Source: Alloalcanivorax dieselolei B5 (GTDB taxonomy: Bacteria > Pseudomonadota > Gammaproteobacteria > Pseudomonadales > Alcanivoracaceae). Taken from it: a DNA stretch of 64,000 bases. The notes beneath the pieces were generated by a model. The model was given only the letters and a program-made list of their open reading frames with translations, did no database searches and had not been told where the DNA came from. Below, in pieces: positions 25,618 to 37,573 of the stretch. The position numbers and the translations under genes were made by a program. The stretch lies in contig NC_018691.1 of the NCBI RefSeq assembly GCF_000300005.1, positions 3,720,001 through 3,784,000 on the forward strand. The letters are read 5' to 3'. The stretch's first letter is position 1, and each line of letters begins with the position of its first letter.

Positions 25618-25770
25618 ACCTGACGGGTTTATCCGGCACGGCAATTTTTATTCCTTCCGGATTATTGTTTTTTTATGTATCCCCAAACGGGAACGTCACA
25701 TTAGCGACAACAAAGGCTCCTAGGGTTTGCCGTTATTGCTGCAATCGACCCAACGTTGAAGGTGCCTACC

Positions 25771-27288
25771 GTGGATTCCCGTTTTACTCGTCGCGCTATC
25801 GTCCGGGCCATTCTGTTGGGAATGGCGTCGTCGACCCTCACCGCCTGCGGCGGCGGGGGCTCCGGCTCCGCGCCACCTTCCACTCCACCTTCCCCCGCCC
25901 CCTCCCCGAACCAACCGGACGATCCGGAGACACCTGAGGAACCCGAATGCCCTCCCGAGGAAACCGCCGGTGCGCAACCGCCGCGAGGGCTTCACGCCAG
26001 TTGGACCGATGATCCTCACACCACCCGCACCCTGACCTGGTTCACCGACGGCACCACGGATCCCGGCACCCGGGTTCAATACGGGCCCATCACCGGGGAT
26101 GCGGATTCATGCTCACTCACCACCGCCGCCTTTCCTTTTGAGGTCACCGGCGCGGCCCATGAGACTTACGGTGTGGAGGCTCTCACTCACGTAGCCACAC
26201 TGACCGGACTGAAAGCGGGACAGGCGGTACGTTATCGGGTGGGCTCGGACAACGGCGGCTGGAGCCCAACACGGGTATTCGCGCCCACTCGCACCGATGG
26301 CTTTCGTTTTTGCCACTTCGGCGATCACGGATTGCAGGACGCCAGCCAGCGTGTTCTGAGCAACGTGGAAACCCTGGCGCCGGATTTTTTCATCGTCGCC
26401 GGCGATCTCTCTTATGCCAACGGCGACCAGCCGGTATGGGACCGCTATTTCGACATGCTCGAGCCCCTCGCTGCCCGGGTGCCGGTAATGACCTGCCCCG
26501 GCAACCACGAAAACAAGGACGGCGGCGGGCAGGGCTACCGCAGCCGCGTCAGCCAGCCGGGCAAAGGAATGTATTACGGTTTCGACTACAACCGCGTACA
26601 TTTCTTTTTCAGTACCGGCGGTTCACTGCTGACCGATTTGTCCTCCACCACAGAGCTTCTGGTGGAACTGGCGGCAATGGAAAAAGACCTGGCCGAAGCC
26701 TGGCGCCGCCGGCGTGACGGCGAAATCGACTTCATCGTTTTTGTCCAGCACTACACCCTCTGGACCAACTGCGAAGGCCGCGACCCCGCCAACTTTGCCC
26801 TGGTGGCGGTGGAAGAACAAATTCTGCTGCGCTACGACGTGGACCTGGTCCTGGTGGGCCACGACCATGTTTTCGAGCGCTCGCATCCGATGGCCTACGG
26901 CAAGCAATCCGATAATGGTTACGTACAGGTCACCCAGGGAGGCGGCGGGCAAAGCCTCTACGACCTGATCGAGGATCCCGCCGACTGGGCCGCCGTTTCC
27001 AGGGTATGCCATGGCTTCACCGTCGTGGATGTGGAAGAGCGGCGGATCCGCGCACGCAGCTACGCGGTCAGCGACGAGGACGGCAACCTGTACCCCGAGG
27101 GCGAGGAAATACTGCTTGATGAATTCACCCTTGCCCCCCGAGTCACGGCACCCACAGGTATCACTCCGTTCTCGACCCGGGAACAACGGCCGGCACGCTC
27201 ACTGGCCGAACTGGACGTGGATCTGAACGCCATGCTCAAGCACACTCTGCAACGTAACCTGACCCACGACATGAACGAAATGCACTAG
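25771..27288 (+). CDS. Tat-exported lipoprotein, purple-acid-phosphatase-like metallophosphoesterase
   Basis: About 505 residues. The N-terminus has a twin-arginine motif (FTRRAIVRAILLG) and a lipobox ending LTAC, followed by a Gly/Ser/Pro linker. An Fn3-like purple-acid-phosphatase N-domain (PRGLHASWTDDPHTTRTLTW, VRYRVGSDNGGWSP) precedes the dinuclear-metal core with FGDHGLQ, AGDLSYANG, CPGNHENKD, VQHYTLW and GHDHVFERSHP. It probably removes phosphate from exported esters. The start is uncertain: GTG at 25771 has AAGGTG upstream, and a TTG at 25756 is also possible. Neither is ATG. Confidence 0.87.
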   Translation: MDSRFTRRAIVRAILLGMASSTLTACGGGGSGSAPPSTPPSPAPSPNQPDDPETPEEPECPPEETAGAQPPRGLHASWTDDPHTTRTLTWFTDGTTDPGTRVQYGPITGDADSCSLTTAAFPFEVTGAAHETYGVEALTHVATLTGLKAGQAVRYRVGSDNGGWSPTRVFAPTRTDGFRFCHFGDHGLQDASQRVLSNVETLAPDFFIVAGDLSYANGDQPVWDRYFDMLEPLAARVPVMTCPGNHENKDGGGQGYRSRVSQPGKGMYYGFDYNRVHFFFSTGGSLLTDLSSTTELLVELAAMEKDLAEAWRRRRDGEIDFIVFVQHYTLWTNCEGRDPANFALVAVEEQILLRYDVDLVLVGHDHVFERSHPMAYGKQSDNGYVQVTQGGGGQSLYDLIEDPADWAAVSRVCHGFTVVDVEERRIRARSYAVSDEDGNLYPEGEEILLDEFTLAPRVTAPTGITPFSTREQRPARSLAELDVDLNAMLKHTLQRNLTHDMNEMH

Positions 27289-29116: not shown

Positions 29117-31306
29117 TCATCTCACTGTTTTTATGGTCTTCCAGGTCCTGAACCGGAACAACAACCCTCCCGCACCAACCCACCACCAACCGATGGCCCC
29201 TCCGCCGTTGCCATAGCTGACGTTGTTGTCGTCCTCGGTTTCCGACGCCATATCCACGCGCAACACGCTGGTGTCGGACACGGCACGGCCGGTGCTCTGG
29301 TCCTCGCAGGCGATGGACAGGTAGTAGTTGCCCGCCGCCGGTGAAACGTCAATGCTGCCGGACGGCGTCAGCGATCCGGACCAGGCCTCCAGGGAGGAAC
29401 TCGCCTGGCAATTTTCCACACCGCTGCCCGTCCAGGTCAGTTCGCTGATTTCGCCCAACTGGATCACCGGCGGCGTGGCCGTGAGCACAATGGAGCCGCT
29501 GGCGGCGGTGCCGGAAGTGTCCACCACGAACAGGGTGCCGTAGTCGTCGTAAGGTACCGTGGTGTTGCTGGCCCCGCGCACGAATTCCTGGCCGCCGTAC
29601 AGCGCGGCGCCGTAAAGGCGATCGTCGCTGCCCCTGACCACACCGATCGGCGTGTTACCTTCCTGGTTATAGGTAAAATCGCGCAGCAGCTCGAAGCCGT
29701 CGGCGGTGACGTTGCCGTCGGCGTCCACCTGGATGGCGATGGGGTCGATGCGATACAGGGTGCCGTTGCGGGATTTATGGATCTGACCGTTGGTTTTCTT
29801 GAATTCACGCAGCGTGCCACCGGTCAGGGTGGTGCCATAAATATTGCCATCAGGCCCCAACGCCATGGGCCCGCGCGGCGAGGCGCCGTCGTCGTAATCG
29901 AACTCATGCAGCAACTGGAATTCACCGGTGTCCTTGTTGACCCGATAGAGGGCGCCGTAGGGGCGCGGGCCATCGTAGAAGGGATGCTGAATTCCGTAGG
30001 GCCATTCGGTGACCCCATTCGGATAATTCGGATAGCCGTTGCTGTTATAGATGTACGGCGCGACGTAGCCTTCCTTGCGAAACACGTAGTAGCCCAGGCT
30101 GCTGGTCATGCTGATATTCCAGCCACACAGGGGCGCCGACATGGCGCGGTCGTCCTGCCAATAGCTGTTTTCCACCCAGACTTCGCACTGCCCAACGGCG
30201 GTGCCGCCGTAGAGCCAGCCATCCGGACCCTCCACCAGATGGGACAGGACCGGGGCCGTGGAATGACTTTCATGACCGGCGCCGTCCGCCTTGAAATAGG
30301 AGCCGCTGCCGTGCAGCCAGCGGTGCCGTCCGGGATTGATGACGTTGATTTCCCCTTCCGACAAAGTGAAAGTGTGCAGGATCTTGATGCCGTCTTCAGG
30401 CGAATTCAGGTCCAGCCGGTAGACCGCGCCCACCTCGGTCTCCGGATCGGTCAGGGTGCCGGGTTTGAAGGGCATGCCACGATCATAGCCCAGCAGGCCG
30501 TACAGCTGGCCGCCGCCACCGAGTACCAGACTGTTGGGTAGTTGATCCCGGCCCGTCTGATTGGCAAAGGTATAAAGAATATCGACTCGGTTATCCGGCC
30601 ACAGACGGAAAATCCGGCCATTGCCGTCCGGTCCTTCGTCGACGCCGTACACCACGTCGGAATCGGAGTCATGCAGCAGATATCCCACCGGCGCGTACAG
30701 CACCCCGATACTCTCTTCCAGCAGCTCCGCGTAGTTGCCGTCACTGTCCAACCGGTACAGCGCGCCCCCTTGCACTTCGCCGCTGGTGACCAGTTCAGTT
30801 GAGAACGACGCGCTGTTGGGGTTGGCAGGGGAGGCCTCCTGAAAGCGGCCCATCGGCGGCACCAGAACACCAATCACATCACCATTGTTACGCTGGACAT
30901 AGTTGCCCAATAGCCGGTAATTCGCGCTGGCCTGGAAGCTGGTGCCATCGACCCTTTGCACGGTCACCGTTTCCGGCTCAATGCCCATCTCCGTTTTCGG
31001 TGACTCCACCTGATAGTGGGAGGCCACCACCGGAGAGCGCGCCAGAGCGCCGTACGAATCGGCCCGCGCGCGCTCCACCGGCAACAGCAGGTACTGACTG
31101 TTCTCGGTGATACTGAACAGCGGCGGGGCCAGCGGGGTTTCCGCCGGCGGCCACCCCTTGGGTTGATCCTCGGTGCCCTCACCGGTGGCGTCGGCGAAGT
31201 AATGCAGCGAAGTGATGGTGGTGAAGGTCACCTCCTCCGCCGCACCGACGGGAGCGGCGAGCAACACACCGGAAGCCAGGGCCGGCAACAATCGGAGCAC
31301 TTTCAT
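29117..31306 (-). CDS. secreted GloVer-repeat protein with GlyGly-CTERM-like tail (second of pair)
   Basis: A 729-residue exported protein. After a signal peptide (LASGVLLAAPVGA) come about nine blocks of the GloVer type, with phrases such as GGGGQLYGLLGYD, GAVYRLDLNSPEDGIKILHTF, GPDGWLYGGTAVG and GTLYRIDPIAIQ. These tandem units have the spacing of a beta-propeller-like structure. An Ig-like segment (ITLTATPPVIQLGEISEL region) precedes a Gly-rich junction, a membrane stretch GWWWVGAGGLLF and a basic tail. This suggests a GlyGly-CTERM sorting signal, although the tail is longer than usual. AGGA precedes the ATG. It is the last gene of the sigma/FecR/receptor cluster. Confidence 0.8.
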   Translation of the reverse strand: MKVLRLLPALASGVLLAAPVGAAEEVTFTTITSLHYFADATGEGTEDQPKGWPPAETPLAPPLFSITENSQYLLLPVERARADSYGALARSPVVASHYQVESPKTEMGIEPETVTVQRVDGTSFQASANYRLLGNYVQRNNGDVIGVLVPPMGRFQEASPANPNSASFSTELVTSGEVQGGALYRLDSDGNYAELLEESIGVLYAPVGYLLHDSDSDVVYGVDEGPDGNGRIFRLWPDNRVDILYTFANQTGRDQLPNSLVLGGGGQLYGLLGYDRGMPFKPGTLTDPETEVGAVYRLDLNSPEDGIKILHTFTLSEGEINVINPGRHRWLHGSGSYFKADGAGHESHSTAPVLSHLVEGPDGWLYGGTAVGQCEVWVENSYWQDDRAMSAPLCGWNISMTSSLGYYVFRKEGYVAPYIYNSNGYPNYPNGVTEWPYGIQHPFYDGPRPYGALYRVNKDTGEFQLLHEFDYDDGASPRGPMALGPDGNIYGTTLTGGTLREFKKTNGQIHKSRNGTLYRIDPIAIQVDADGNVTADGFELLRDFTYNQEGNTPIGVVRGSDDRLYGAALYGGQEFVRGASNTTVPYDDYGTLFVVDTSGTAASGSIVLTATPPVIQLGEISELTWTGSGVENCQASSSLEAWSGSLTPSGSIDVSPAAGNYYLSIACEDQSTGRAVSDTSVLRVDMASETEDDNNVSYGNGGGAIGWWWVGAGGLLFRFRTWKTIKTVR

Positions 31307-31373
31307 AAACTTTTCCTGAAAAACGAACTGGGACCGGGCGTGAACCCGGCCCATGGCGGAATCATGGGAACGA

Positions 31374-33182
31374 TCAGGCACGGCGGACATAACGCCGGCG
31401 CGCCAGCCCCACCGCCGCCAACAGGCCCAGCACCAGCGTACCGGTACTGCCGCCGCCACCGCCGCCAGAGGAACCGCCACCGGAATTGTCGTCATCCCCG
31501 CCGTCTTCACCACCCTCGTTCTGAGCCACGGTTAATACAGCGGTGTCCCCCACCGTGGTTTCACCATCGGCGGCGGTGCATTCGAGGGTGAAGGTGACGG
31601 TGCCGTACTGACCCGGCTCGGCCAGTTCCAGGCTGCCACTGGCGGCACGGGGTTCGCCGGTCAGGGCGGCGTAGTCGGCGGAATCTCCGGCGTCGATGGT
31701 GCAAACGTTGTCACCATCCAGACCAGTGGTGCTCCAACTCAATACTGGAGCCTGGCCATCGCCCACGGTGACGTTCGCCGGGTCCACGGCGAACGTGGTG
31801 ATGGCCGGCGCCGCCAACGGCACTTCCACGCTGAAGATACCGCCTTCATCATTGGTCGCGCCGCCCTGGGTGACACCAAACAGGCGCTGTACCTGACCGC
31901 CATCCTCCTTGGTCAGAATATCTCCGGCCGACAGCCCCATGGGAGCGCTGCCCTCGGTGGCCGCATCGAAAGTATGCAGAAACTCCAGGGTGTCATCGGC
32001 GCGGTCCTCGGCCTGACCCATCACGATGCGATACAGGGTGCCCGGCCCTTTGCCCTCGCCGTCGCTGAAATCGAATTCGGTGGTGCCGTAAATATTGCCG
32101 TCGGCGGCGCGTACCATCGCGCCCCTGGGGGCCGTGCCGTCGGTGTTTTCAAACCGATGGATCACCGTGAAACTGTTCGGGTCATCCTTTTTCATCCGCC
32201 ACGCCAACTGAGTCGTAGTGCCGTACAACCAGTCGCCGTCCTCCACCAGCCCGGTGAATCCCTGATCGCTGACCGAAGGGTTGCCATGCAGCGAATAGGA
32301 GAAGGTGTACAACAAGGTGGGATCGGTGGTGTCGCCCCCTGACAATTGATCAGCGCCGATACGGAACAGGGTGCCCGACGGATCACCGGCGTCAACTTCG
32401 GCCGGATCGCCACCGGCAGACACCGCGCTGCCGCCACTGGTCACGCCGTACAGCGCCTGGTCACTTTCACTCCAGACCAGGGCGGCCACTTCCCGGCCGA
32501 GGACGTAATAGTCGGTATTCCCAGGACCTTCACGCTCGAAACGTTCGTTTTGCAGTTCCGTCAATACATCCAGGGTATTGTCAGCGCTCAATCGCCACAG
32601 GCGCCCGCCACTGGAGAAGTAGACATTGTCATCACCGTCCACCGTCATCTGCCCACGCACTTTCATATCGGCGGGGTCGGCGTCCTCGAAGCCGGCCGGC
32701 ACGACGATACGCTCCGCCTGCAGCGCAAGCTCACCATTGAGTTCCGCCAGCGCGCCAATGCCATTCCAACCGGCCTGACCGTCGGAGGAAATGCCGTCCA
32801 CATCCACGGCACGGGAACTGCCCACCAGCAGGGAGCCGGAGCTGCGAGCCACCACGGTACTCAAGGGAGAACCGATGTCCGAACCCAGCAACTGATACTG
32901 GTAATCCGGTGTCTGGGCATCGGGATCCAGGCTGTAATAAACGCCCTGGGTAATGACGAAATAGTCACCGGCACCGGGCTCACCGCTGTCGAAGGTCACG
33001 CCATAAAGCCGGCCATCGTCCGCCAGCAGCGGTGGTGCTTCCGGGCGCATACCACGGAATTCACCGCTGGCGCCGGTGAAATCGACGATCACTTGCGGGG
33101 TGAAATCGCCCTCGGCGGCGTGGGTCAGGGACACGGTGCCGCACAGTACCAGTACCGCCGTTGCTTGCCATCTTGCTTTCAT
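31374..33182 (-). CDS. secreted GloVer-repeat protein with GlyGly-CTERM tail (first of pair)
   Basis: A 602-residue exported protein with signal peptide (CGTVSLTHA). Repeat blocks include ADDGRLYGVTFDSG, DQALYGVTSGGSAVSAGG, ADGNIYGTTEF and GGIFSVEV, the choice-of-anchor GloVer repeat. An Ig-like domain (about 460-565) has a probable Cys pair. The tail GGGSSGGGGGGSTG, one helix and RRRYVRRA is a clear GlyGly-CTERM. It starts 25 bp after the TonB-dependent receptor stop, so co-transcription is likely. It may bind a ligand at the cell surface for that receptor; this is inference. Confidence 0.82.
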   Translation of the reverse strand: MKARWQATAVLVLCGTVSLTHAAEGDFTPQVIVDFTGASGEFRGMRPEAPPLLADDGRLYGVTFDSGEPGAGDYFVITQGVYYSLDPDAQTPDYQYQLLGSDIGSPLSTVVARSSGSLLVGSSRAVDVDGISSDGQAGWNGIGALAELNGELALQAERIVVPAGFEDADPADMKVRGQMTVDGDDNVYFSSGGRLWRLSADNTLDVLTELQNERFEREGPGNTDYYVLGREVAALVWSESDQALYGVTSGGSAVSAGGDPAEVDAGDPSGTLFRIGADQLSGGDTTDPTLLYTFSYSLHGNPSVSDQGFTGLVEDGDWLYGTTTQLAWRMKKDDPNSFTVIHRFENTDGTAPRGAMVRAADGNIYGTTEFDFSDGEGKGPGTLYRIVMGQAEDRADDTLEFLHTFDAATEGSAPMGLSAGDILTKEDGGQVQRLFGVTQGGATNDEGGIFSVEVPLAAPAITTFAVDPANVTVGDGQAPVLSWSTTGLDGDNVCTIDAGDSADYAALTGEPRAASGSLELAEPGQYGTVTFTLECTAADGETTVGDTAVLTVAQNEGGEDGGDDDNSGGGSSGGGGGGSTGTLVLGLLAAVGLARRRYVRRA

Positions 33183-33207
33183 GGTTCCGCCCTCTTGCTG
33201 AATCGGT

Positions 33208-35775
33208 TCAGAATCGAATGGAAATGCCGCCAATGACGGTGCGGCCAGTACCCACTTGGTAGCTGCCGCCGTTCATCTCGGTGTAGTAGGTGTCGCGCAA
33301 GTTGTTCACCGACAGCCGCAGGGTGGCGTTGTCGGTAAGGTCGTAGCGGGCCCACAGATCCCAGGTGCGCCAGGAATCAATGGCGCTGTCGGAGACCCAG
33401 CCGGCGTCGCTCTGGGCGTCGGTGGGCCGTTCATAACGGAATTGGGTGCCCAGGGTCAGCTTGCGGTTGAACAGCCGCACGCCCAGGTTGGCCAGCACGC
33501 GATGCCGGGGCGGCAACACGTACCAGACATAGCCGCCGTTGTAGCCGTTCGGGTCGCCGAACACGGTGTCCGGGTAGCCGTAAATACTGCCCAGGGGAAA
33601 GGGGTCGTAACCGCCCTTGCCCATGTCGATCAACATGCGGGTGTAGGAGACGCCACCGAACACCCAGCCGGCGTCGTAATCGGTTTCCAGCTCCAGGCCA
33701 CGAAAGCGCACGTCGTCGTCCAGATTGACGAAGGCAAAGCCGCTGAAACCGTTGGGCTGCTTTTCGTCCACCGGGGTCATGATGGCGCCCTGCACCATGT
33801 AGTTTTCCACGGTGGAATCGAACCAGGCGATCTTGGTGCGCAGTGTGTCCCCCCTCGCCAACAGGCCGTCCCATTTCAGATTGGTGCCGATTTCCCAGTT
33901 GCGGGAGCGTTCCTCCTCCAGGCCCGGGTTCGGGTAGTAGAAGAACATGTTGCCCACATGGGCGCCGGACAGCAGCGATTCGGTGATCGCCGGTGGGCGC
34001 AGCCCCTCGCCGTAGGAAGCGTAGATCTCCAGCCAGCGATACGGTGACAGGGACAGAGTCAGCTTGGGCGCGAAGGCGCCGGCGTGGCGCTCCACGTCGA
34101 AGTTGGTGTACATGCGGGTATAGGGGGGACGCACGCCTTCCGGGTTGGGGATCAGACCGTTGAAGATGCGTCCGTCACCTTTGATCTGGTACCAGTCGTA
34201 GCGCAGGCCGGCGATCAGTTTGAGCCAGTCGTCATGCTGGAAGGTGGCTTCCGTGAACACACTGGAGACCCAACGCTCGCCTTCCGGCGTGGCGCCGGTG
34301 AACCACTCCGAGGAACTTTGCGAATCGTCGGACTGCGACTGGGCCTGGGGATCGGTCCAGTCGTAATAAAACTCGGTGCCATAGTCCAAGGCCAGATCGA
34401 AGCGCTTGAACGGGAACACCGAGCGGTTCGTCAAGGTACCGCCAACGGTGTTGGTCTCGTACTCGACGGCGAAATCGTCGTAATAGTTGGACCCCCAGCG
34501 CTTCTCATTGACGCGCGTCAGGGTGTAGTACAGGCTCGCGTTGAGATTGAGCAGCAGATTCTCGCCGCCACCCTGGTGGTAATGGGCAGTGAGAGTGTCG
34601 GTGCGTGCCTCATTGTCACCACGCTGGTTGTCTTGCAGGCTGGTGTCCTGGTAACTCTCGCTGTAGTCGGCGCGCATGCCCACATAGCTGAATTCCAGGG
34701 ACTGATCCGGCGCGAAACGCCAGCGGGTCTTGAACAGGCCGGACCATTGTTCCTGGCCGGTGAACTGGCTGACGCCGTGCATATAATCGGGGGAGTCATC
34801 AGGAATGCCACGGGCACCGCGCTCATAGTCACCCAGATTCTTGCGGCTGATGGCGGCGGTCATGTCGAAGTTGTCGGTGGGCCGGAACGCAGCGGCCAGA
34901 CTGCCGGCGAAGTGGTAGCCGTTATCGCCGCTGTTCAGATTCAGCCGCCCGCCGGCACGCTCGCCCTCCTCCAGCAGATCGTCCGCGTCCAGAGTCTTGA
35001 AGTTGACCGTGCCGGCGATGCTGCCGGCGCCGCCGACGGTGGACACCGGCCCCTTGAACACGTCCACGCCGGAGAGCAGCTCCGGGTCCACATAGACCAG
35101 GCCATTGGAGCCGTGGCCGCTTTTCTGGAAGTTCTGACGGGCGCCGTCCACCATCACGGTGACACGGCCGAAATCCTGCATGCCGCGCACGTTCACCGAC
35201 ACGCCCGGGTTCTGGCGGCTTTGCGAGGTATAGACGCCGGACACGTTTTCCACCACGTCGGAGGTGTTGCGCGGAGGTAGCCGGTCAATTTGTTCCCGGG
35301 TTACAACTCCGGCGGATCCCGGTGTCTGGTAAACCCGCTCCCGCTCTTCTTCGAAGGTGCCCACCACGTTCACCTGTTGCAGGGTATGGCTCTCCTGAAC
35401 GGACGGGTCGGGGCGCTCGCGCAGCACCGCCACGTTGCCGTCGCGCAGACGAAACTCGATGCGGGAGGAGGAAAGCAGACGGGACAGCGCTTCGACGTAG
35501 GTCATGCTGCCCCGCACCGTCGGCGCTTGATACGGCGACAGATCCAGACCGCCGTATATCAACTGCCCGCCGGATTGCCGGGCGAACAGCTTCAATGCCG
35601 ATTCCAGGCTCTGGGCCGGAATATTGAACGTCAGCCGCGCTTGTGCCGCCGTGACCTGGCTGTTCTCGTCTTCGGCGTGCGCCATCGCAACCCCCCCCGC
35701 CAGGACGACCGATAGAATCCAACACGCCGCGCTATGGCGGCGATGGGGGAAAGCGAAAAACCTCGAGCCCGACAC
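33208..35775 (-). CDS. TonB-dependent receptor with N-terminal signalling domain, heme/hemoglobin-receptor-like
   Basis: An 855-residue outer-membrane transducer. It has a signal peptide (cleavage near AMAHA), then an STN/secretin domain (about 42-95: LTFNIPAQSLESALKLFARQ), which in Fec-type systems contacts the anti-sigma factor. The plug follows with NVRGMQDFGRV-type and GPVSTVGGAGSIAG segments seen in heme/hemoglobin receptors. The beta-barrel carries NPGLEEERSRNWEIG, an NPDL-like box. The C-terminus ends in Phe (GGISIRF). The GTG start at 35775 follows GGAGTAAG; longer starts lack a Shine-Dalgarno. It probably imports heme or an iron chelate. Confidence 0.9.
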   Translation of the reverse strand: MSGSRFFAFPHRRHSAACWILSVVLAGGVAMAHAEDENSQVTAAQARLTFNIPAQSLESALKLFARQSGGQLIYGGLDLSPYQAPTVRGSMTYVEALSRLLSSSRIEFRLRDGNVAVLRERPDPSVQESHTLQQVNVVGTFEEERERVYQTPGSAGVVTREQIDRLPPRNTSDVVENVSGVYTSQSRQNPGVSVNVRGMQDFGRVTVMVDGARQNFQKSGHGSNGLVYVDPELLSGVDVFKGPVSTVGGAGSIAGTVNFKTLDADDLLEEGERAGGRLNLNSGDNGYHFAGSLAAAFRPTDNFDMTAAISRKNLGDYERGARGIPDDSPDYMHGVSQFTGQEQWSGLFKTRWRFAPDQSLEFSYVGMRADYSESYQDTSLQDNQRGDNEARTDTLTAHYHQGGGENLLLNLNASLYYTLTRVNEKRWGSNYYDDFAVEYETNTVGGTLTNRSVFPFKRFDLALDYGTEFYYDWTDPQAQSQSDDSQSSSEWFTGATPEGERWVSSVFTEATFQHDDWLKLIAGLRYDWYQIKGDGRIFNGLIPNPEGVRPPYTRMYTNFDVERHAGAFAPKLTLSLSPYRWLEIYASYGEGLRPPAITESLLSGAHVGNMFFYYPNPGLEEERSRNWEIGTNLKWDGLLARGDTLRTKIAWFDSTVENYMVQGAIMTPVDEKQPNGFSGFAFVNLDDDVRFRGLELETDYDAGWVFGGVSYTRMLIDMGKGGYDPFPLGSIYGYPDTVFGDPNGYNGGYVWYVLPPRHRVLANLGVRLFNRKLTLGTQFRYERPTDAQSDAGWVSDSAIDSWRTWDLWARYDLTDNATLRLSVNNLRDTYYTEMNGGSYQVGTGRTVIGGISIRF

Positions 35776-35840
35776 TCTGCTTACTCCGTCCTGTTGTCCA
35801 TGCCACGCGATCAAACGCGCTACTGACCACTAGGACGAGC

Positions 35841-35855
35841 GAATGAGTTTCATTC
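35841..35855. promoter_or_regulatory. perfect dyad GAATGA-GTT-TCATTC upstream of the receptor
   Basis: A perfect 6-3-6 palindrome lies 65 bp upstream of the receptor start. On the minus strand it overlaps a GGGAAT...TCGTCC arrangement, which could be an ECF-sigma promoter (-35 GGAAT-like, -10 GTC-like). Function is inferred from position. Confidence 0.35.
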
Positions 35856-35965
35856 CCAAGAAGTTTTTGCATTTCGCCCTTGGAGAAGCCATGCCCTGTT
35901 CATCGCCCACGGCGGACGCAAACGTCCGCACACGAATCCGCAGGGAGCAGGCCTTGGGAGGCGAA

Positions 35966-36910
35966 TCAGTAAAGCAGGGTCAGGTAGGGTGTCAGACGGC
36001 GCAGAGCCAAACCCTGACTTTCCGCCAGCGCGTCGAGCCCTTTGTCGAGTTCGGCCACGGACAGCATTGCCGATACACGACGTCGGCCGACGCCGGAGTC
36101 CAACAGCAGAATCTTGCCGGGGTGGTAGCGTTGAATCGCCGTCAGCACATCATCCAGTGGCAGATCATCCAGCTCCAGCCGGCCCTCGGTCCACAGCAGA
36201 GCAGCAGTGACGTCCGCGTCCGACACGCCGGACGGCGGTTGTCCGCTGTCATAGACAACCGTCTGGCCGGCATGGACCATTACCGCATGCTCGCCGCCCC
36301 GCTCCGGCGAACGCACCGATACCACACCTTGGGTCACCGTCACCCGCACGGACCGTCCCCGGTCTTCCACCTGATACGCCGTGCCCACCGCCTGAGCCGC
36401 CCCCCCTTGGGACAGCACTTCGAACGGTCGCCGCTTATTCGGTTCCACCTGAAACCAGGCCCGCCCCCGGAGCAATTCGATACGCCGCAGCCCGGAGTCA
36501 TAGTGCACATCCACGGCGGAGTCCGTGTCCAGAATCAGACGGGACCCATCTTCCAAAGCAACGGTGCGTATCTCTCCGGTAGCGGTGTGAAAATCGCCCT
36601 GCGGACGAAAAGCCAGGACCATCATCACCAGCACAACACTGGCCGCTGCCGCCAGGGGCAGGAAGCGGCGGCGAATCGGCGACTCGGTTACCACCGGCGC
36701 GGGACATAGATCCGCCTCCAATGCAGCCAGGTCGCGCCAAAATTGTTGCTCGTGCTCAAAGGCCTGACGATGTTGAGGATCCGTGGCCAGCCACCGCGCA
36801 AGTCGCTCCCGTTCGCCCTGCTCCATCGTTCCCGAAGCGATCCGGATCACCCAATGGCGAGCGGTTTCCGCGATTGTCTCGGCGTTTGTGTCGTTGTCCG
36901 TCGAAGTCAT
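35966..36910 (-). CDS. FecR-family anti-sigma factor
   Basis: A 314-residue anti-sigma regulator. The cytoplasmic N-domain (DUF4880-like: ARHWVIRIASGTMEQGERERLARWLATDPQHRQAFEHEQQFWRDL) precedes one membrane helix (FLPLAAAASVVLVMMVLAF, about 92-110). The periplasmic FecR domain has VALEDGSRLILDTDSAVDV and LLRGRAWFQV, and a C-terminal STN-like segment ends at YLTLLY. It should hold or activate the ECF sigma factor according to the receptor's signal. ATG at 36910. The gap to the sigma gene is 117 bp, and to the receptor start 190 bp. Confidence 0.9.
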   Translation of the reverse strand: MTSTDNDTNAETIAETARHWVIRIASGTMEQGERERLARWLATDPQHRQAFEHEQQFWRDLAALEADLCPAPVVTESPIRRRFLPLAAAASVVLVMMVLAFRPQGDFHTATGEIRTVALEDGSRLILDTDSAVDVHYDSGLRRIELLRGRAWFQVEPNKRRPFEVLSQGGAAQAVGTAYQVEDRGRSVRVTVTQGVVSVRSPERGGEHAVMVHAGQTVVYDSGQPPSGVSDADVTAALLWTEGRLELDDLPLDDVLTAIQRYHPGKILLLDSGVGRRRVSAMLSVAELDKGLDALAESQGLALRRLTPYLTLLY

Positions 36911-37027
36911 TAACCATCCAGGATCTTTGCAAGCCCGGTGCCATACCGGGCAGTCCGGCCCCATATCCGATAGGACGACTCAGCGCCCGGCCTGCCCCAC
37001 TTTTTCATCCGATTTCCGGCCTACCGT

Positions 37028-37525
37028 TCACCGTCGATCCCGGATTCTCGCCAGATGCTCGAACACTCGACGAATATGATTCTCCACCGTGGTGGTGGAA
37101 ACCCCCATCTCTTTCGCGATTTGCTGCTGGGTTTTGCCTTCAAACCTATTGGCAAAGAAAATTCGCCGGCTCCGTTCCGGCAAATCCTGCAGCGCGTCCT
37201 GGAGACGCCGCAAGGTCTCGTCGGCCATACAATTACGCTCGGGTCCGCGGGTCTCGAAAAGGTCCTCGGGCTGATGATTCTGTTCCAGAATCTCACGGCG
37301 GCGGCTTTCCACCCGAATATGGTCGGTGGCGAGATTGGCCGCCATTCGATAAAGATAGGCCCTCATATTGAGGACCGGTCCCTGCCCTTCTGCCTGGACC
37401 AAGCGCAAGTACAAATCCTGGAGCAGGTCCGCCGCTGTGAAACGGCACTGCAAACGGCGGGTCAAATACCCCAACAAGTCCTCCCTGTGTTGCTGGTATG
37501 CTTCCAACAGCGCGACTTGCCTCAC
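37028..37525 (-). CDS. ECF RNA polymerase sigma factor (FecI type)
   Basis: A 165-residue ECF sigma factor. Region 2 begins LLEAYQQHREDLLGYLTRRL, with ADLLQDLYLRLV and MRAYLYRMAANLATDHIR for -10 recognition. Region 4 (LPERSRRIFFANRFEGKTQQQIAKEMGVSTTTVENHIRRVFEHL) recognises -35. The GTG at 37525 is chosen over an upstream GTG at 37624: it has GGGGAC upstream, matches FecI length, and leaves the Fur-box match (37555-37573) outside the coding sequence. No ATG is available. It would activate the receptor gene when the FecR partner is signalled. Confidence 0.88.
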   Translation of the reverse strand: MRQVALLEAYQQHREDLLGYLTRRLQCRFTAADLLQDLYLRLVQAEGQGPVLNMRAYLYRMAANLATDHIRVESRRREILEQNHQPEDLFETRGPERNCMADETLRRLQDALQDLPERSRRIFFANRFEGKTQQQIAKEMGVSTTTVENHIRRVFEHLARIRDRR

Positions 37526-37554
37526 TATCCGTCCCCAATCCGCGTTCCAGATCC

Positions 37555-37573
37555 GATAATGATATTTATTCTC
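37555..37573. promoter_or_regulatory. Fur box upstream of the ECF sigma gene
   Basis: GATAATGATATTTATTCTC agrees with the 19-bp Fur consensus GATAATGATAATCATTATC at 16 positions; mismatches are at positions 11, 13 and 17. It lies about 30 bp upstream of the GTG start of the sigma gene. Iron-replete repression of the whole receptor cluster is the simplest reading. This supports an iron or heme uptake function and the chosen sigma start. Confidence 0.72.

Follow-up and report, generated by a model that had tools for sequence, protein, structure and literature searches.

What do two large exported repeat proteins do beside a TonB-dependent heme receptor? The question is raised by a locus in the 64,000-nucleotide stretch of the Alloalcanivorax dieselolei B5 genome analyzed here (contig NC_018691.1, positions 3,720,001–3,784,000; hereafter the window), in which a Fur box, an extracytoplasmic function (ECF) sigma factor, FecR, a TonB receptor, and two GloVer-repeat proteins, designated GV1 and GV2, follow one another in this order, all on the minus strand. 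Judged from sequence comparisons, this locus on balance probably represents a distinct subtype of Has-type heme uptake that recurs across genera, in which tethered propellers would work with a HasR-type receptor to capture heme or the heme-loaded hemophore HasA. The original prediction, made from the letters of the window, had named this gene set with its strand, its positions, and the gaps of 25 and 67 bp downstream of the receptor, all of which were borne out by the sequence and by profile searches. The parts of the locus are as follows.

37555..37573, minus strand: Fur-box-like site, 16/19 consensus matches
37028..37525, minus strand: ECF sigma factor of the FecI/HasI type; GTG start likely, 165 amino acids, as in the ortholog in L039
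35966..36964, minus strand: FecR-type anti-sigma factor/signal relay (PF04773, 81 bits; PF16220)
33208..35775, minus strand: HasR-type TonB-dependent heme receptor with N-terminal signalling domain (TIGR01785)
31374..33182, minus strand: GV1, 602 amino acids; signal peptide, predicted beta-propeller (GloVer repeats), Ig-like domain, and GlyGly-CTERM-like tail
31377..31496, minus strand: GV1 tail; Gly/Ser-rich stretch, hydrophobic helix, and basic end
29117..31306, minus strand: GV2, 729 amino acids; signal peptide, predicted beta-propeller (GloVer repeats), Ig-like domain, and GlyGly-CTERM-like tail
29120..29212, minus strand: GV2 tail, with GNGGG, a hydrophobic segment, and a basic end; its relatives have more canonical tails

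The reading frame of the ECF sigma factor stays open to 37624.

The receptor clade and its GloVer pair

The window receptor scored 508 bits against the TIGR01785 heme/hemoglobin receptor model (cut-off, 316.85), and the solved structures closest to a nine-receptor profile were the HasR chains 5c58, 3csl, and 3ddr (522–524 bits), followed by ShuA (147 bits), in support of a HasR-type heme receptor. The STN domain proposed earlier fell short in Pfam (17.7 bits; cut-off, 28.4), whereas the receptor profile covers the N-terminal domain of HasR in the alignment, and with it the signalling domain that has been solved on its own (2m5j). HasR His189 pairs in the alignment with His221, which is invariant in the profile, and a second invariant histidine, His606, lies one column off HasR His603; these two residues of Serratia HasR are presumably its heme-ligand histidines.

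Scanning named genomes with the receptor alignment yielded 525 relatives, and the 80 best of these were examined; a locus was scored as lacking GV genes when no match above 200 bits to profiles built from the Alloalcanivorax proteins was found in a flank of up to 10 kb, some flanks being much shorter. GV genes adjoin 17 of these best 80, with both genes present at 16, and at the 17th (L070) the contig ends just past GV1. The hosts are Alloalcanivorax/Alcanivorax (seven, which are the loci of the window's genus under their names), Comamonas (four), and Variovorax (two), the remainder being Paracidovorax, Hahella ganghwensis, a Saccharospirillaceae bacterium, and Pseudoalteromonas lipolytica; the gene order in Comamonas and Variovorax is GV2–GV1. 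In a quick IQ-TREE tree (midpoint root, no bootstrap), the 19 receptors with adjoining GV genes (the 17 named ones and two from the genome of the window) stand on one side of a single branch among 82 rows (SH-aLRT, 100), and none of 500 label shuffles gave a value as low as that observed for this clade. The flanking DNA examined around the other 63 receptors, six of which adjoin a HasA match, contained no GV match. Orthologous loci lacking the GV genes, named in the original prediction as a finding that would refute it, were sought, and none was found in the receptor clade (19 receptors, available flanks), while the proposed co-occurrence of the receptor with adjacent GV genes was seen both here and in the genus, as described below. 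A chance neighbourhood is rejected by the recurrence of the receptor with adjacent GV genes at 18 further loci (a second locus in the same genome and the 17 named loci). As a separate observation, a Halomonas dongshanensis locus without GV genes (L093:5283–17226) shows, each in duplicate and in a row, HasR-like receptors (514 and 478 bits), ECF/FecR pairs, and heme oxygenase matches.

Among 94 genomes including that of the window, GloVer matches occurred in 7 and HasA homologs in the same 7 (each at E ≤ 0.001), all belonging to the window's genus (7/13, as compared with 0/81 of the others). The receptor (E ≤ 1e-60) was found in the same 7 of 13 genus genomes as nine copies, each adjoined by the GV pair (9/9); the other 6 lacked receptor, GV, and HasA at these thresholds. 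The named hosts of the genus are Alloalcanivorax xenomutans, balearicus, gelatiniphagus, and mobilis, Alcanivorax sp. 24, and a metagenome-assembled genome.

A TIGR03803 search revealed one other GloVer locus in the genome of the window, consisting of ECF, FecR, receptor, GV1, HasA, GV2, a type I ATP-binding cassette (ABC) transporter, a membrane fusion protein (MFP), TolC, and heme oxygenase. Its HasA scored 46 bits in Pfam (cut-off, 26.3), and solved HasA chains match approximately residues 77–228 (best E, 5e-8). Since the two GloVer genes here surround HasA, they form part of a has operon, and the window contains a related, HasA-less locus: neither a HasA hemophore nor a type I exporter was found at the window locus, and the HasA search hit a single place in this genome, the second locus. 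HasA lies between GV1 and GV2 at 9 of the 17 named GV loci (six of these in the window's genus), making 10/19 with the second locus. The window-type and Comamonas/Variovorax-type loci showed no match to the Alloalcanivorax HasA profile, which could miss a divergent HasA. The earlier suggestion that the pair replaces a hemophore is therefore in keeping with these HasA-less loci and is ruled out as a general rule by the loci where HasA accompanies the pair. In one draft Alloalcanivorax genome, the TolC-like gene of the has locus is represented by two overlapping open frames (L036:2145–3631).

Beyond the receptor-based scan, the GV1 profile matched 30 of 369 genomes class-wide (own included); these are not counted as GV1 relatives, because the matches run mostly through the Ig-like domain. 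The GV2 profile matched 2 of 150 Comamonadaceae and 2 of 398 genomes of the phylum, all four already among the known loci, and GV2 therefore appears rare and patchy. A scan of the named-genome contigs with a single GV1 protein gave no match, whereas the receptor-alignment scan did find the loci.

Predicted fold, tails, and likely display machinery of GV1 and GV2

GV1 and GV2 are paralogous, the profile of each also picking up the other. Against the GloVer model TIGR03803 (cut-off, 44), GV2 scored 73.6 bits and GV1 41.8 bits, so that the repeats called in both proteins stand above the cut-off in GV2 and just short of it in GV1; at E ≤ 1, all 18 GV1 and all 16 GV2 sequences matched. AlphaFold models (pLDDT 77.5 and pTM 0.78 for GV1; 67.5 and 0.73 for GV2) retrieved mostly beta-propellers from PDB in Foldseek searches (best E, 7e-10 and 1e-11, respectively), and both proteins are thus predicted to comprise a beta-propeller fold plus an Ig-like domain. 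The matches of GV2 include lectins and sialidases, and 5 of the 16 GV2 proteins show weak matches to SMP-30/gluconolactonase. No Pfam match to DUF4374 (the XusB family) was obtained for the GV proteins, and no conserved lipobox Cys was seen on inspection of their sequences. Cys374 and Cys394 are invariant in GV2.

Both window proteins end in the tripartite layout (Gly-rich, hydrophobic, basic) expected of the GlyGly-CTERM-type tails proposed originally, as judged by inspection; weak matches to the corresponding model TIGR03501 (best E, 0.03–0.04) occur in 1 of 18 GV1 and 7 of 16 GV2 sequences. Two members of the sets depart from the usual build. Hahella ganghwensis GV1 as read (L072:12337–14160) has no GlyGly-CTERM-like tail past the Ig-like domain, unlike its GV2 partner, and in the draft genome of Comamonas testosteroni ATCC 11996 an in-frame stop splits GV2 (L073:12515–14692; excluded from the GV2 alignment and rate table), its GV1 being a divergent allele.

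At five loci (three from Comamonas, two from Variovorax), genes for heme oxygenase, GspN, and rhombosortase lie directly downstream of GV1 on the same strand, with a DUF454 gene in between at the one Variovorax locus tested. Rhombosortase was recognized at all five, and GspN gave a Pfam match in L062, L063, and L064 and a positive genome search in all five genomes; the three-gene set was not within the flank of L071, and L070 ends too early. Over whole genomes, GspN was present in all 16 GV genomes searched, and rhombosortase scored above the cut-off in 13/13 genus genomes and 9/9 other GV genomes (the genome of L074 lying outside the sample), in accordance with the earlier proposal of sorting by this enzyme, whose model also matches, below the cut-off, in 14/14 control genomes.

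It is likely that GspN and rhombosortase constitute the display machinery of the GV proteins. GlyGly-CTERM tails act as portable rhombosortase signals in Vibrio cholerae (PMC13393428). GspN is required for surface delivery of lipoproteins with an N-terminal lipobox in Acinetobacter baumannii (PMC12802150); we infer that it may also serve GlyGly-CTERM proteins. GspN adjoins rhombosortase within the heme locus of L063 (17360–19263), and each of the five genomes has a second GspN match elsewhere. The extra GspN beside rhombosortase suggests a dedicated surface-display branch. In C. testosteroni KF-1, two consecutive GlyGly-CTERM genes located fewer than five genes from rhombosortase are mentioned in PMC3237569, and these are probably the GV pair.

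Probable replacement of the outer parts

In four close Alloalcanivorax genomes, the synonymous divergence (dS) of the has-type locus is 0.01–0.40 in ECF, FecR, receptor, ABC, MFP, and heme oxygenase, and 0.40–1.60 in GV1, HasA, and GV2, where 16 of 18 values are at least 0.80; NG86 distances near 1 are rough, and alignments of GV proteins with 55% identity add error. The corresponding protein identities are 94–98% (receptor), 55–72% (GV1), 76–85% (HasA), and 55–87% (GV2). Along the second locus of the window's genome compared with the other three in 150-bp windows, nucleotide identity is 79–99% in the receptor and 37–85% from GV1 to most of GV2, and recovers to 80–97% at the end of GV2 and the start of the ABC gene, the last of these windows being at the contig end. 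The nearest partner genome varies by gene. The lowest value among the outer parts (dS, 0.40) belongs to GV2 of G007 versus G008, which is near vertical descent, unlike GV1 and HasA of that pair; therefore, the outer parts are not in every case exchanged together.

A similar pattern is found in Comamonas, where several frames of the dS comparison, as in Variovorax, were taken from stop to stop. Between C. testosteroni JL40 and ATCC 11996, dS is 0.09–0.14 in six other genes and 0.96 in GV1, and between C. suwonensis and JL40 it is 0.77–1.46 in the same six genes and only 0.38 in GV2 and 0.31 in GV1. The safer cases of replacement are HasA (85% identical; dS, 1.24) and the C. testosteroni GV1 pair. 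Faster amino-acid change alone is disfavoured as the cause of the GV divergence, because dS rises too and because the GV genes of C. suwonensis and JL40 are closer to each other than the six others. From these comparisons, divergent alleles from other lineages look to have taken the place of GV genes in two genera belonging to different families, and of HasA as well in Alloalcanivorax; the GV proteins thus appear to be exchanged among strains and species, with little change in the receptor. As the receptor changes little while its neighbours are replaced, the variable partner is probably located outside the cell (a ligand source, a competitor, or a phage), and the locus offers a natural experiment on the forces behind variation at nutrient receptors, be it ligand choice, hemophore privatization, or escape from phages and bacteriocins.

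Proposed heme capture and its alternatives

Iron control, as expected from the Fur box noted at the outset, is consistent with the DNA upstream of the ECF gene, where the best match to the Fur-box consensus is 13–17 of 19 at the 10 distinct loci examined (scanned stretches of 210–360 bp). Of 600 random 300-bp windows drawn from the same 64 kb, 15 had at least 13 matches and 4 had at least 14, all four with 16 matches and possibly containing the window's own site; since it was drawn only from the GC-rich window, this background makes the matches in AT-richer genomes, that of Pseudoalteromonas for example, look better than they are. The receptor genes themselves are preceded by weak matches (13/19 in the window and 10/19 in the has locus of the same genome). 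In the proposed mechanism, iron starvation would release Fur, and the ECF sigma factor with FecR, fed by the signalling domain of the receptor, would turn on the HasR-type receptor and both propellers. The type II secretion system, perhaps with GspN, would export GV1 and GV2, which rhombosortase would trim and tether at the outer membrane. There they may dock on HasR, capturing heme, or heme-loaded HasA where it is encoded, and passing it on to the receptor; heme oxygenase, which is encoded at the has-type and Comamonas/Variovorax loci and not in the window copy, would then open the imported heme. A host protein, also considered earlier as a ligand, looks unlikely given the mostly environmental genera. 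More tentatively, and rather doubtfully, the paired tethered propellers, together with the hemophore where present, may be swapped between strains so as to set which heme source, or which kin's HasA, the near-constant receptor accepts. If so, a public hemophore would be made private without a change in the receptor, and the system would be a separately evolved proteobacterial counterpart of the propeller-lid transporters of Bacteroidota.

Several observations weigh against heme capture by the propellers. The restriction to a single receptor clade may mean only that one ancestor gained the GV genes, and the allele signal is absent in the single window-type pair and in the Variovorax pair. TM-scores to the propellers shown are low (query-normalized, at most 0.38), and XusB and BtuG are absent from the 50 Foldseek matches shown for each GV model. 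No heme site stands out in GV1, because its sole conserved His, H403 (17/18), is inside a repeat-like motif; GV2 has an invariant patch (Y274-x-R-G-x-P and H311 to E319), which is read as non-repeat. TIGR03501 was not reported for GV1 or GV2 of the window at E ≤ 1. Furthermore, 3 of 369 sampled gammaproteobacteria have GloVer proteins with no such receptor in the stretches examined; therefore, the repeat alone does not mean heme.

TonB receptors are often used by phages and bacteriocins, and the propellers might instead cover the heme receptor as a shield, their replacement reflecting an arms race and heme capture not being their job. The retention of the receptor while the GV genes are replaced would fit this explanation, as would the co-encoding of a variable surface part with the receptor across the whole clade, but HasA is replaced along with the GV genes in Alloalcanivorax, which is needless for a pure shield, and we regard the explanation as unlikely. 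Less likely still, though suggested by the lectin, sialidase, and SMP-30/gluconolactonase resemblances of GV2, is a substrate-side role, in which the surface propellers, acting like lectins or enzymes, would bind or open material bearing heme near the cell without contacting the receptor; no conserved catalytic set was recognized, and a general adhesin would not require so close a tie to one receptor clade.

It is also conceivable that the GV proteins are signalling partners, which inform the receptor and FecR of the ligand and tune the ECF sigma factor rather than uptake. ECF and FecR matches indeed lie upstream at 16/17 named GV loci, L069 being truncated on that side, but the same ECF/FecR pair occurs at many HasR-like loci without GV genes, rendering this role quite improbable. 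The existence of GloVer proteins elsewhere without an adjoining heme receptor could point to mere passengers with no functional link; their recurrence at 19 receptors of several families, the existence of two gene orders, the presence of heme oxygenase, GspN, and rhombosortase at five of the loci, and the lack of any clade locus without GV genes (0/19) leave this explanation hardly tenable. Tethered propellers acting with HasR in heme capture, much like the propellers XusB and BtuG of Bacteroidota on their TonB transporters, are retained as the favoured reading.

HasA/HasR is a well-studied heme-uptake system, to which a tethered partner would be an addition. The GV loci share with the HasR/HasA systems of Serratia and Pseudomonas the receptor family, the N-terminal signalling domain, and the ECF/FecR control, and the sister loci also HasA, type I secretion, and heme oxygenase. 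In contrast to those systems, they add two exported propellers, which were not found at the other 63 receptors examined, and the window copy is without HasA and its exporter. The logic of a surface partner joined to a TonB receptor is shared with HpuA, TbpB, and HxuA, which are surface partners of heme or transferrin receptors with folds and anchors other than those of the GV proteins. In Bacteroidota, BtuG reportedly forms a surface propeller on the TonB transporter BtuB for B12 uptake. XusB of Bacteroidota is a surface propeller lipoprotein (DUF4374) encoded with the TonB transporter XusA for iron-ligand uptake (PMC13142918). Both resemble the GV system in encoding a surface propeller (here at a putative surface location) with a TonB transporter, whereas the GV system has two propellers, a proteobacterial host, and HasR as the partner, and its C-terminal GlyGly-CTERM-like tails differ from the lipoprotein anchoring of XusB. 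The tripartite tail and rhombosortase are shared with VesB and other rhombosortase surface proteins of V. cholerae, the substrates named in PMC13393428 including proteases, a DNase, and one protein of unknown function; the word heme does not occur in the main text of that paper or of PMC3237569.

In the open-licence literature, none of the matches listed described GloVer or GlyGly-CTERM proteins alongside a heme receptor, or a surface-tethered HasR partner, in line with the earlier remark that no described system with this gene set was known. A receptor clade accompanied by two exported propellers wherever seen, and in some genera also by GspN and rhombosortase, offers a testable job for GloVer proteins and for GlyGly-CTERM sorting. 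Immediately beyond the flanking MipA and TetR genes, the window also encodes a purple-acid-phosphatase-like metallophosphoesterase with a possible lipoprotein-type N-terminus (25756–27288).

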